A stretch of 7,886 nt of DNA, from the NCBI GenBank assembly GCA_030615745.1, contig JAUWYR010000061.1:1-7886 (forward strand), written 5' to 3'. The notes beneath the pieces were generated by a model that saw only the letters and a program-made list of their open reading frames with translations, did no database searches and was not told the DNA's origin. The position numbers and the translations under genes were made by a program. This DNA comes from Candidatus Zixiibacteriota bacterium. Its GTDB lineage: Bacteria > Zixibacteria > MSB-5A5 > SM23-73-2. Positions 227 to 6,741 of the stretch are shown here, piece after piece (the first letter of the stretch is position 1; each line of letters opens with the position of its first letter).

Positions 227-1690
227 ATGAAGCTGAATCAACTCAAAGCCACAGAACTTAAAGAACTTCTGAAAAAGAAAGAGGTTTCAAGTCTGGAGAT
301 AGTCTCATCAGTTTTCAAAGAGATAAAGTGTAAGGATAAGGATATGAATTCTTTTATAACTTTAATTGAAGAGGATGCTAAAAAATCTGCTGAAAAGATA
401 GATCAAAAAATAGCCAGGGGTGAAAAATTGGGTTCTTTAGCCGGGATTCCTGTGGCTATTAAAGATAACATCTGCGTGAAGGGAAATTTTTGCACCTGTG
501 GGTCAAAGATTTTAGAAATTTTTGTTTCACCCTATGATGCCACTGTAGTCGAGTGGTTGAAAAAAGAAGATGCGGTGATAATTGGAAAGACAAATATGGA
601 TGAGTTTGCCATGGGCTCTTCAAATGAGAACTCTTATTTTGGTCCGGCGAAAAATCCTTATGACTTAAAAAGAATTCCTGGGGGTTCAAGCGGAGGTTCT
701 TCTGCTTGTGTTGCCTCTGATATGACCATCTTAGCCTTGGGCTCAGATACTGGAGGCTCGGTCAGACAGCCAGCATCATTATGCGGTGTGGTTGGTTTAA
801 AGCCGACCTATGGGCTTGTATCCAGATATGGTTTAGTCGCGTTTGCTTCCTCTTTGGACCAGATTGGTTGCCTGACAAAAGATGTCAAAGATTGTGCTAT
901 GCTTTTGTCTGTTATTGCTGGCTATGATAGGAGAGATTCCACTTCAATAAATTTTGAAAAAAAAGATTACACCAAATTTTTAGAAGATGGTTTAAAAGAT
1001 ATAAATATAGGAATTCCTGAGGAATATTTTGAAAAAGGTTTAGATAAAGAAGTGAGGGAGGCTGTCTTAAATGGAGTAAAGATGTTGGAAAAACAAGGTC
1101 TTAAAACTTTTGAAGTTTCGATGCCTCATACTGATAGGGCTATAGCGACCTACTATGTTTTGTGCACAGCTGAGGTATCTTCAAATTTAGCCCGATATGA
1201 TGGAGCAAAATATGGTTTTAGGCCAGAAGGTGAGTCTGATCTGGCTTCTATGTATGAAAGGACAAGGTCAGAGGGTTTTGGAGATGAGGTTAAAAGACGT
1301 ATTATCTTAGGGACCTATGTTTTATCAGCAGGATATTATGAGGCGTATTATGCAAAGGCTCAAAAGGTGAGGACTTTTATAAAAGAGGATTTTGACCAAG
1401 CATTTAAAAAAGTTGATCTTTTGATAACGCCTACTTCCTCTACCACTGCTTTTAAATTGAAAGAAAAGATCGATGACCCCTTGACCATGTATTTATCAGA
1501 TATCTATACAACTTCAGCAAACCTGGCCGGAATTCCCGCAATCTCTGTACCCTGCGGCAAAGACTCAAAGGGTTTGCCTATTGGATTGCAGATAATGGGA
1601 CCCCCTTTATCAGAGGAGTTGATATTGAGGATAGGGTATTTTTTGGAAAGGAGTTTGTCAAGTAGGTCAAGCATTCCGAAGGGTGCTTGA
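227..1690 (+). CDS. gatA: Asp/Glu-tRNA amidotransferase subunit A (GatA)
   Basis: This is the glutaminase subunit of the GatCAB amidotransferase. It releases ammonia from glutamine for conversion of Glu-tRNA(Gln) and/or Asp-tRNA(Asn) to the amidated forms. The 487-residue protein is an amidase-signature enzyme of normal length. The Ser-cisSer-Lys triad is visible: Lys79 in GIPVAIKDN, cis-Ser154 in PGGSSGGSSA, and nucleophile Ser178 in GSDTGGSVRQPA, at the numbering of the Staphylococcus aureus enzyme. The start at 227 gives the usual N-terminus; only a weak purine-rich stretch (GAAGAG at 207-212, spacer about 14) precedes it. The last nine codons and the TGA lie inside repeat element 1, giving an atypical tail (SRSSIPKGA). 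gatC is not next to it here. gatB follows after a 210-nt repeat-filled gap. Confidence 0.97.
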   Translation: MKLNQLKATELKELLKKKEVSSLEIVSSVFKEIKCKDKDMNSFITLIEEDAKKSAEKIDQKIARGEKLGSLAGIPVAIKDNICVKGNFCTCGSKILEIFVSPYDATVVEWLKKEDAVIIGKTNMDEFAMGSSNENSYFGPAKNPYDLKRIPGGSSGGSSACVASDMTILALGSDTGGSVRQPASLCGVVGLKPTYGLVSRYGLVAFASSLDQIGCLTKDVKDCAMLLSVIAGYDRRDSTSINFEKKDYTKFLEDGLKDINIGIPEEYFEKGLDKEVREAVLNGVKMLEKQGLKTFEVSMPHTDRAIATYYVLCTAEVSSNLARYDGAKYGFRPEGESDLASMYERTRSEGFGDEVKRRIILGTYVLSAGYYEAYYAKAQKVRTFIKEDFDQAFKKVDLLITPTSSTTAFKLKEKIDDPLTMYLSDIYTTSANLAGIPAISVPCGKDSKGLPIGLQIMGPPLSEELILRIGYFLERSLSSRSSIPKGA

Positions 1691-1729
1691 CAAAATGGTG
1701 TCGAGCAGGTTTCGCCATGCTCGACCTAC
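1662..1729 (+). repeat. Double-hairpin inverted-module repeat, element 1
   Basis: Two hairpins lie in inverted orientation inside a GTAG/CTAC outer stem (1662-1665 with 1726-1729). Hairpin A has arms GTCAAGCA 1666-1673 and TGCTTGAC 1684-1691; hairpin B has arms GTCGAGCA 1700-1707 and TGCTCGAC 1718-1725. The spacer is 1692-1699. Reverse-complementing the right module (1700-1729) and aligning it to the left (1662-1691) gives 23 of 30 identities. One stem difference is a compensated A-T to G-C swap (positions 8/27), and another (14/21) turns T-G into G-C; the remaining differences lie in the loop-proximal part. The loops contain CGAA and TTCG, which are complementary. The left module overlaps the end of gatA. 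There is no T-tract, so it is not an obvious terminator. Confidence 0.85.
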
Positions 1730-1740
1730 AAAACTACACA

Positions 1741-1789
1741 CGTAGCAGAGGGTTTATCCCTCTGTCCGAGCCATAAAGGCTCGGCTACG
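1741..1789 (+). repeat. Double-hairpin inverted-module repeat, element 2
   Basis: The outer stem is CGTAG 1741-1745 with CTACG 1785-1789. Hairpin A is CAGAGGG 1746-1752, loop TTTAT, CCCTCTG 1758-1764. Hairpin B is CCGAGCC 1766-1772, loop ATAAA, GGCTCGG 1778-1784. One base (1765) separates them. The reverse complement of the right 24 nt matches the left 24 nt at 18 positions, and the six differences are exactly three compensated base pairs (module positions 7/23, 11/19 and 12/18). The five-base loops are perfectly complementary to each other. It begins 11 nt after element 1 ends. Confidence 0.88.
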
Positions 1790-1800
1790 CGATAAAAAAC

Positions 1801-1866
1801 GTGCCAGTCGGGTCCCCCGACCCGACTGGACAAAGATTCCTGCCAGGTCGGGGACCTGGCAGGCAC
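1801..1866 (+). repeat. Double-hairpin inverted-module repeat, element 3
   Basis: GTGCC at 1801-1805 can pair with GGCAC at 1862-1866. Hairpin A is an 11-bp stem, CCAGTCGGGTC 1804-1814 with GACCCGACTGG 1819-1829, loop CCCC. Hairpin B is an 11-bp stem, CCTGCCAGGTC 1839-1849 with GACCTGGCAGG 1853-1863, loop GGG. The two inner bases of the outer stem are shared with the hairpins. Aligned as inverted copies, the modules differ by six substitutions forming three compensated pairs (6/27, 8/25, 10/23) and one loop-length change. The loops are complementary C and G runs. It starts 11 nt after element 2 and ends 34 nt before the gatB start codon. It is strongly GC-rich against an AT-rich background and is not followed by a T-tract. 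Confidence 0.88.
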
Positions 1867-1900: not shown

Positions 1901-3364
1901 ATGGAATACGAAGCGATCATAGGTCTGGAAGTCCATGCTCAGCTTTTAACTGAGTCGAAGATCTTCTGTGGCTGTTCGACTAAATATGGAAGTCCACCTA
2001 ATTCACAGACTTGCCCGGTCTGTCTGGGGATGCCTGGGGTTTTACCGGTTTTGAATAAAAAAGCAGTTGAATATACTATCAAGATGGTTTTGGCAGTTGA
2101 AGGAAGGGTAAAAGAAAAAAGTGTCTTTGCCCGAAAAAACTATTTTTACCCTGATCTGCCCAAAGGCTATCAGATCTCCCAGTATGACCAGCCCTTAGCT
2201 TGTGGAGGATTTATCGAAATCGATTTGCCGGATGGGAGAAAGAAAAAAATAAAAATCACAAGGATACATCTTGAGGAGGATGCTGGAAAATCGATGCATA
2301 TTGAGAATGAAGATACTAAAACTTTGATGGATATGAATCGCTGTGGAATCCCTTTAATAGAGATTGTGAGCCAGCCAGATCTATCCTCGCCTGAGGAAGC
2401 TTATCTTTATCTGGGGAAGTTGAAGCAGATTCTTATGTATCTAAGAATCTGTGCGGGGAATATGGAGGAGGGGAACTTGCGCTGTGATGCAAATGTCTCT
2501 GTCAGACCTAAAGGTGAAAAGGGTTTTGGCACAAGCACAGAGGTTAAAAATATGAACTCCTTTAAGGGTGTGGAAAAAGCTTTGGAATATGAGATTCAAA
2601 AACAGATAAGGATATTAGAATCCGGTGGTAAGATAGAGCATGAAACTCTGCTCTGGGATGAGAAAAAGGAAAAGGTTTTTTCTATGCGAGCCAAAGAGGA
2701 ATCGCACGACTATAGATATTTCCCGGAGCCGGATTTAGTTAGATTAGTTATAAATCAAGGTTGGATAGAAAAGATAAGAAAAACTATGCCTGAGCTTCCA
2801 GACCAAAGGGAAAATAGATTTATAAAAGAGTATAATTTACCAGAATATGATGCTGGAGTTTTAACATCCTCCAAAGATCTGGCAGACTGGTATGAGGAGG
2901 GTTTGAAATATTATCCTAACCCGAAAATTCTCTCCAACTGGGTTATGGGCGAGGTCTTAAGAGAATTGAAAGAAAGGAGAGTCGAGATCAGAGATTTGAG
3001 GATGAAACCAAAAGATTTAGCTGAGTTATTAAAGCTTATAGATGATAAAACTATTAGCGGAAAGATTGCTAAGGATGTTTTCAAGGAGATGGCTGAGACC
3101 GGTCTCTTGATGCATACGCAAAAAAAAGCAGAGGAGATTGTTAAGAAGAAGGGTTTAGTTCAAGTGACTGATAAAGCTCAGATAGAAATCGTGGTGGGAA
3201 AAGTATTATCGGAGAATCAAGGAAGTGTTAAAGAATATTTAGCTGGTAAAAAGAAGCTTTTTGGATTTTTTGTTGGTGAGGTGATGAAAAAGGCCAAAGG
3301 AAAAGCAAATCCAAAAATGGTAAATGAGATTTTGAAGGAGAAGCTTAAAATCGGAGATGCGTAA
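1901..3364 (+). CDS. gatB: Asp/Glu-tRNA amidotransferase subunit B (GatB)
   Basis: This is the kinase/transamidase subunit of GatCAB, which phosphorylates the Glu or Asp on tRNA and replaces the phosphate with ammonia delivered from GatA. The 487 residues are of normal family length. Visible marks are the zinc-ligand cysteines Cys23, Cys25, Cys38 and Cys41 (FCGCS...CPVC), NYFYPDLPKGYQISQ at 80-94, HLEEDAGKSMH at 123-133, RCGIPLIEIVSQPD to about 160, EEGNLRCDANVS to 200, and ESHDYRYFPEPDL around 267-279. The C-terminal part from about residue 330 is the helical/YqeY-like tRNA-binding tail. The start at 1901 gives the canonical MEYEAIIGLEVHAQL; only a weak GAG-type ribosome site (1890-1892) precedes it. 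Repeat elements 1-3 separate it from gatA, so its expression may be uncoupled from gatA. purN starts 20 nt downstream. Confidence 0.97.
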   Translation: MEYEAIIGLEVHAQLLTESKIFCGCSTKYGSPPNSQTCPVCLGMPGVLPVLNKKAVEYTIKMVLAVEGRVKEKSVFARKNYFYPDLPKGYQISQYDQPLACGGFIEIDLPDGRKKKIKITRIHLEEDAGKSMHIENEDTKTLMDMNRCGIPLIEIVSQPDLSSPEEAYLYLGKLKQILMYLRICAGNMEEGNLRCDANVSVRPKGEKGFGTSTEVKNMNSFKGVEKALEYEIQKQIRILESGGKIEHETLLWDEKKEKVFSMRAKEESHDYRYFPEPDLVRLVINQGWIEKIRKTMPELPDQRENRFIKEYNLPEYDAGVLTSSKDLADWYEEGLKYYPNPKILSNWVMGEVLRELKERRVEIRDLRMKPKDLAELLKLIDDKTISGKIAKDVFKEMAETGLLMHTQKKAEEIVKKKGLVQVTDKAQIEIVVGKVLSENQGSVKEYLAGKKKLFGFFVGEVMKKAKGKANPKMVNEILKEKLKIGDA

Positions 3365-6659: not shown

Positions 6660-6741
6660 TTGGAGTGTCCCGTCTTGGCGGGACTTCAATCTACTCAAAG
6701 CCCAAAAATATAGTAGGTAAACCTGAAGGTTTACACTCCAA
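6660..6741 (+). repeat. Double-hairpin inverted-module repeat, element 4
   Basis: A 9-bp outer stem pairs TTGGAGTGT 6660-6668 with ACACTCCAA 6733-6741, sharing two bases with each inner hairpin. Hairpin A is GTCCCG 6667-6672, loop TCTTGG, CGGGAC 6679-6684. Hairpin B is GTAAACC 6717-6723, loop TGAA, GGTTTAC 6728-6734. The two 25-nt modules, compared as inverted copies, agree in the outer arm but their hairpin stems differ almost completely while pairing is kept (three C-G to A-T swaps, one G-C to C-G flip, one T-G to C-G). The 32-nt spacer contains CTACT 6691-6695 and AGTAG 6712-6716, which could form a third inner stem. It lies in the leader of coaBC, 15 nt before its start codon. Confidence 0.82.

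Follow-up and report, generated by a model that had tools for sequence, protein, structure and literature searches.

Probable REPINs of several RAYT families side by side between gatA and gatB in a Zixibacteria genome, with stem pairing kept and stem sequence not

The REPINs, or BIMEs, of Pseudomonas fluorescens SBW25 and Escherichia coli are inverted doublets dispersed over the genome, with several families per genome and a REP-flanked RAYT for each family, and the doublets described here are of the same build. Canonical REPs are defined by a GT[AG]G head (PMC6006769), and compensatory changes are known in the spacers of SBW25 (PMC3116915). A SELEX study of two RAYTs demonstrated that the bases of the head and the loop were selected, that the stem sequence was tolerated and that mismatches in the stem were harmful; the loop of the Marinomonas REP was found to be TTNA (PMC8266576). 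Our literature search found no paper on REPs in Zixibacteria.

The DNA analysed here, referred to as the window, is a stretch of 7,886 nucleotides corresponding to one contig (C10) of a 2.28-Mb genome in 74 contigs. The host belongs to the Zixibacteria and shares its genus with the MAG SM23_73_2: when GatB was compared, the nearest named relative was 'candidate division Zixibacteria bacterium SM23_73_2'. Over 4446 nt, the locus of this MAG is identical to the one in G001, the sole other genome of the window's genus and family among the genomes compared. SM23_73_2 is called the sister below. From the open reading frames and the families recognised in them, we take the gene order to be gatA, gatB, purN, purC, purH and coaBC. 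The features relevant to the analysis are the following:

227 to 1690, plus strand: gatA, whose last nine codons and stop fall in or at the left REP of E1, as indicated by a comparison of homolog ends
1662 to 1729, plus strand: E1, a putative REPIN with head GTAG, of the type of the resident RAYT L003
1742 to 1788, plus strand: E2, a putative REPIN with head GTAG, with a partly decayed ortholog in the sister
1801 to 1866, plus strand: E3, a putative REPIN with head GTG, similar to a REP that flanks a RAYT (L319) in a different genome from the same order
1901 to 3364, plus strand: gatB, downstream of all three doublets
6662 to 6739, plus strand: E4, a putative REPIN with head GGAGT, located between purH and coaBC; the same head flanks the sister RAYT L059

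All four elements presented one layout, composed of a head, a hairpin, a spacer, an inverted hairpin and a complementary head, and each was found as a single unit of two inverted REPs and a short spacer. The REPs of E1 (1662-1691 and 1700-1729, spacer 1692-1699) are long, with a bulged T separating the lower from the upper stem. The hairpins of E2 (1746-1764 and 1766-1784) are separated by 1 nt, and both carry the loop TTTAT, read from the head; those of E3 (1804-1829 and 1839-1863) have 11-bp stems with the core GGTC-CCC(C)-GACC, and those of E4 (6667-6684 and 6717-6734) surround a spacer of 32 nt. The GTAG (or GTGG) guide head was found at the hairpin foot of E1 and E2, whereas E3 and E4 are REP-like with other heads. 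The three doublets between gatA and gatB sit where the original prediction had placed them, and their inverted hairpins can be read from the sequence. Two points need correction. First, since heads, loops and matching RAYTs differ, a single family for E1 to E3 was ruled out; they are members of different REP families, and the four elements represent four families. Second, the start of E1 falls inside gatA. Codons 479-487 encode SRSSIPKGA and are followed by the stop TGA, in or at the left REP of E1 (window 1661-1690), and GatA in relatives ends in ...EQNLKR or ...EQNLKT, so that the native C-terminus seems to have been replaced through the insertion of E1.

E1, E2 and E3 are very probably REPINs, that is, non-autonomous mobile DNA of the single-strand type, built as head-to-head REP doublets of the BIME form, which would have been spread by RAYT (TnpA_REP) HuH transposases. 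In this mechanism, each REP would comprise a short guide head (GTAG in E1 and E2, GTG in E3, GGAGT in E4) directly 5′ of a hairpin. The RAYT would bind the folded single strand and recognise the bases of the head and of the loop (or bulge), whereas the stem would be recognised mainly for being double-stranded; the cut next to the element would fall at a dinucleotide that the head selects, after which the doublet would be copied or moved elsewhere, stem pairing being presumably enforced while copies are made. E1 to E3 would represent independent insertions at the same gene boundary, each by a different RAYT system, with only the RAYT of E1 still in the genome.

The compensated differences that had been described inside single elements were recovered almost entirely. 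The left half of E2 reads GTAGC-AGAGGG-TTTAT-CCCTCT-G and the reverse-complemented right half GTAGC-CGAGCC-TTTAT-GGCTCG-G, the six differences being exactly three compensated pairs (A-T to C-G, and G-C to C-G twice) with an unchanged loop. When the halves of E3 were compared (CCAGTCGGGTC-CCCC-GACCCGACTGG and CCTGCCAGGTC-CCC-GACCTGGCAGG), six substitutions forming three compensated pairs were observed, plus one loop indel. For E1, the seven differences and the T.G to G-C change were confirmed, but two compensated pairs were found where one had been counted, A-T to G-C in the lower stem and C-G to G-C in the upper stem; there is also one broken pair, C-G to C.A.

Elements of this kind recur across the genome. 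In a 408-kb sample, which was chosen partly via E1-head matches (the genome-wide pattern counts being unaffected), 36 complementary-head doublets were found, compared to 1 in a Markov control. In the same sample, GTAG stood directly 5′ of a hairpin of at least 7 bp 36 times (0.9 expected), GTTG preceded such hairpins 14 times (1.7 expected) and GAGT 12 times (1.4 expected). The whole genome was searched with family-specific patterns, the four families differing in stems and loops. The E1 type, GTAGGTCRAGCA, presented 15 exact sites and, with one mismatch, 34 sites against 15 in the control, and changes in its upper stem are compensated (CCC/GGG, GTCC/GGAC, GGC/GCC). For the E2 type (GTAG, 7-8 bp, loop YTYRT), the strict 7-bp pattern recovered 59 sites against 1 in the control, with neighbouring copies forming 7 heads-outside and 9 heads-inside pairs. 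The E3 type, with the core GGTCCC-N(0-2)-GACC, had 49 sites against 7, and the E4 type (GGAGT, 7 bp, loop TTYA) had 63 against 0. In this way, the predicted support, namely many dispersed copies with kept architecture and covariation, was found, and dispersed copies exist for all four families. The 'very variable stem sequence' noted earlier holds in that stems do vary, but the variety is partly due to the mixture of four families, which differ from one another in head and loop.

REPINs of different families were also observed to cluster at the same loci of this genome: an E3-type copy lies no more than 300 nt from 16 of the 59 copies of the E2 type, while 0.8 would be expected at random, a figure uncorrected for intergenic space. 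The genome further harbors long doublets (L042 13758-13818 and 15876-15940; L043 19794-19856) with hairpins beginning GCATCGGCAAA... and GCTTCGGGAAT... and heads TGAT/GATG, a family for which no RAYT was found.

When patterns named the head and the loop and left the arms free, two separate pairing peaks were obtained. For GAGT/TTYR, 18 sites paired at 7/7 positions and none at 6/7, the remainder being distributed like shuffled DNA, and no paired peak was seen for the control heads GATC and GAAG or for GTAG with a reversed loop. Among E2-type copies, the two free inner positions pair in 56/59, whereas 23 would be expected with independently dealt arms. Covariation scores computed on distinct sequences were 0.81, 0.67 and 0.78, compared to 0.18, 0.23 and 0.18 in shuffles and at most 0.31 in slid-arm controls. 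The covariation originally noticed thus results from a pattern of fixed head, fixed loop and free stem, and comparative sequence alone recovers the code that SELEX derived for two RAYTs, in which head and loop are read by letter and the stem by pairing.

The Y1/RAYT gene that had been proposed as a partner was found three times in the genome, with no further copies detected by two models, and the sister carries six full RAYTs and a weaker seventh match. The RAYTs display the HuH motif, the Y...NP motif and the family score of TnpA_REP, and L003 matches the E. coli TnpA_REP 4ER8 (2e-16). Each of the three is flanked by REPs with matching heads: L003 by GTAG-GTCAAG REPs (E1 type), L001 by GTAG-GTCAGGAGC REPs and L002 by GTTG REPs. 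In the sister, the flanking heads are GTAG-GTCGA (L055), GATAG (L054), GTTG (L056), GTAG with an E2-like stem and loop (L058) and GGAGT of the E4 type (L059). These heads were called from hairpin lists and locus counts, automatic head calling on RAYT flanks being noisy. A RAYT flanked by REPs of its own family was therefore found in the genome itself for E1, and only in the sister for E2 and E4, while an E3-like REP flanks L319 at one locus. RAYTs matching E2, E3 and E4 are absent from the window assembly, which is 98.6% complete. Judging from head and loop, E2 and E4 would be orphan families in this genome, with RAYTs of their type surviving in the sister, and the best-matching RAYT of E3 would lie elsewhere in the order, as the single locus L319 suggests. 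Since the matching RAYTs are not in the assembly, the E2, E3 and E4 copies may be relics. The link to REPINs and RAYTs, which the original prediction had offered as an inference, is now backed by three RAYTs with matching REP flanks, by the dispersed families and by the covariation.

The close relationship between RAYT and IS200/IS605 TnpA, together with the IS200-type Y1 proteins present in the phylum (L060-L067), could suggest that the elements are instead ends or remnants of IS200/IS605, either a decayed IS or its MITE. This origin is improbable in the extreme, as all nine RAYTs (three from this genome, six from the sister) exceed the NCBIfam REP_Tyr_transpos cut-off (NF047646) and fall below the IS200 cut-off, the elements consist of REP pairs and nothing more, and this genome encodes its RAYTs in three distinct single genes, not in a multi-copy IS. 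In the phylum, Y1 transposases occurred in 57/60 sampled genomes, and relatives of the three RAYT queries were found in 113-120 of 132 genomes, the largest number in a single genome being 21 matches (G039). Three Y1 genes (L063, L064, L065) presented a G-A-F-S-type pocket and CC-rich flanking hairpins with heads GTAG or ATAG, and are possible intermediates between IS200 and REP systems.

The history of the site in relatives bears on what keeps the stems paired. E2 is common to the sister (window 1748-1799, 86.5% over 52 nt), where E1 and E3 are missing and a different, GTCGA-type REPIN precedes gatB. The shared E2 differs in the right stem by one C-to-T change (G.T wobble), and its left hairpin contains a 15-nt insertion in the sister and further changes. 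The sister also has an additional ORF, resembling a membrane protein gene, in its gatA-gatB interval (L150 348-1238). G002, from another family of the class, has no hairpin at the gatA-gatB site. A precise pair of filled and empty sites was not found, the sister differing by far more than the elements.

REP hairpins of E. coli can affect mRNA, and the doublets lie between two co-directional genes, so it could be considered that they are host-kept mRNA signals (terminators, attenuators or stabilisers) of a gatA-gatB operon, whose compensated changes would result from RNA selection at the site. Two terminator-like sites were indeed found on the minus strand. However, the sense strand has no terminator-like site (a GC hairpin followed by a T run), no Rfam match reached the gathering score, dozens of copies stand at unrelated loci, the sister locus lacks E1 and E3 and carries a decayed E2, and G002 has no hairpin at this site, which makes such a role very improbable. 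Because E2 is partly decayed in the sister, pairing is not guarded at the gatA-gatB site, and the covariation, although confirmed, does not demonstrate an upkeep of pairing there.

The covariation has one of two sources: either paired copies were those that spread, or their pairs were restored through template switching. Replication template switching in imperfect hairpins, or quasipalindrome correction, perfects imperfect palindromes in one event (PMC7202029, PMC8794818) and could have generated the compensated changes of REPINs with no selection or transposase filter; it requires no RAYT, which fits the orphan families. We regard this as a real but rather unlikely alternative, since it leaves the fixed heads and loops unexplained, and the E2 shared with the sister has decayed rather than been corrected. 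A flip of the hairpin tip as the origin of the GG/CC to CC/GG changes was excluded, as both stem types share one loop orientation; arm-to-arm copying remains compatible. Therefore, the pairing of stems probably goes back to a filter acting at amplification, or else to template switching, rather than to a role at the site; the first of these is our preferred reading of the covariation across copies.

The head of E4 falls outside the canonical definition. GGAGT hairpins stand beside the RAYT in 7/7 loci of one clade, L059 included, compared to 4/98 other RAYTs; the six further loci, from six genomes, carry L059 homologs that are 29-48% identical and keep the pocket near W..YWDxCI. A GTAG head was found at 38/51 RAYTs with a canonical pocket and at 9/48 others (99 loci from few clades, uncorrected for kinship), and the few clades and independent origins on the tree leave a phylogenetically independent test of pocket against head without power. 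We lean slightly towards the view that RAYT clades with altered guide-pocket residues switched their guide and read GGAGT, GATAG, GTTG or GTG[CG]GC, and that orthogonal REP systems coexist and leave such mosaics. The GGAGT clade would offer a testable natural guide change in a family of single-strand transposases, informing the co-evolution of guide and cut site, and this possible change is the part most worth following. RAYTs of other groups (L083, L086, L108, L094, L122, L135, L145, L099, L139) were observed with flanking hairpin heads GTCG, GTGGGC, GTGCGC and GTGG and with altered pocket motifs RRCYDHNCR, RFDDLII and GGFDRN.

In kind, the elements of the window are ordinary: they belong to the REPINs of RAYT systems, and the host group is new; what is particular here is that copies of several RAYT families stand side by side and that stem pairing is kept and stem sequence is not. 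What began as an odd covariation pattern is now clearly explained by REP biology, in a phylum that is uncultivated and rich in RAYTs. In SBW25, the REP ends are invariant and the spacer covaries, whereas here the REP stems covary and head and loop are invariant; compared to SBW25 and E. coli, the heads GTG and GGAGT also occur beside GTAG. The GTAG families of Di Nocera et al. 2013 (PMC3733652) are alike, in the part of that work considered, in their GTAG head, stems of 5-13 bp and loops of 2-20 nt, as well as in their HH and TT dimers, heterodimers, complementary stem changes and REPs overlapping gene ends. That same part does not name Zixibacteria or include GGAGT among the degenerate GTAG forms (GYAG, GYRG, GTRG, GTMG, GTGG), and, measured against it, stem variety within one family is greater here and is quantified. 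The group 3 REPtrons Sm and Mb (PMC8266576) are likewise short perfect palindromes in which head and loop are read and the stem must pair, and the loop of Mb, TTNA, is close to the TTYA found in GGAGT REPs; those REPtrons have GTAG heads. Finally, the repeats flanking subclass 2.6 and class 3 TnpA_Y1 (PMC6006769) are also without the GT[AG]G head, which gives non-canonical heads a precedent; those repeats are described as weakly structured and subclass 2.6 comes mostly from Bacteroidetes, whereas most GGAGT REPs form perfect hairpins of 7 bp, and their loop is fixed.
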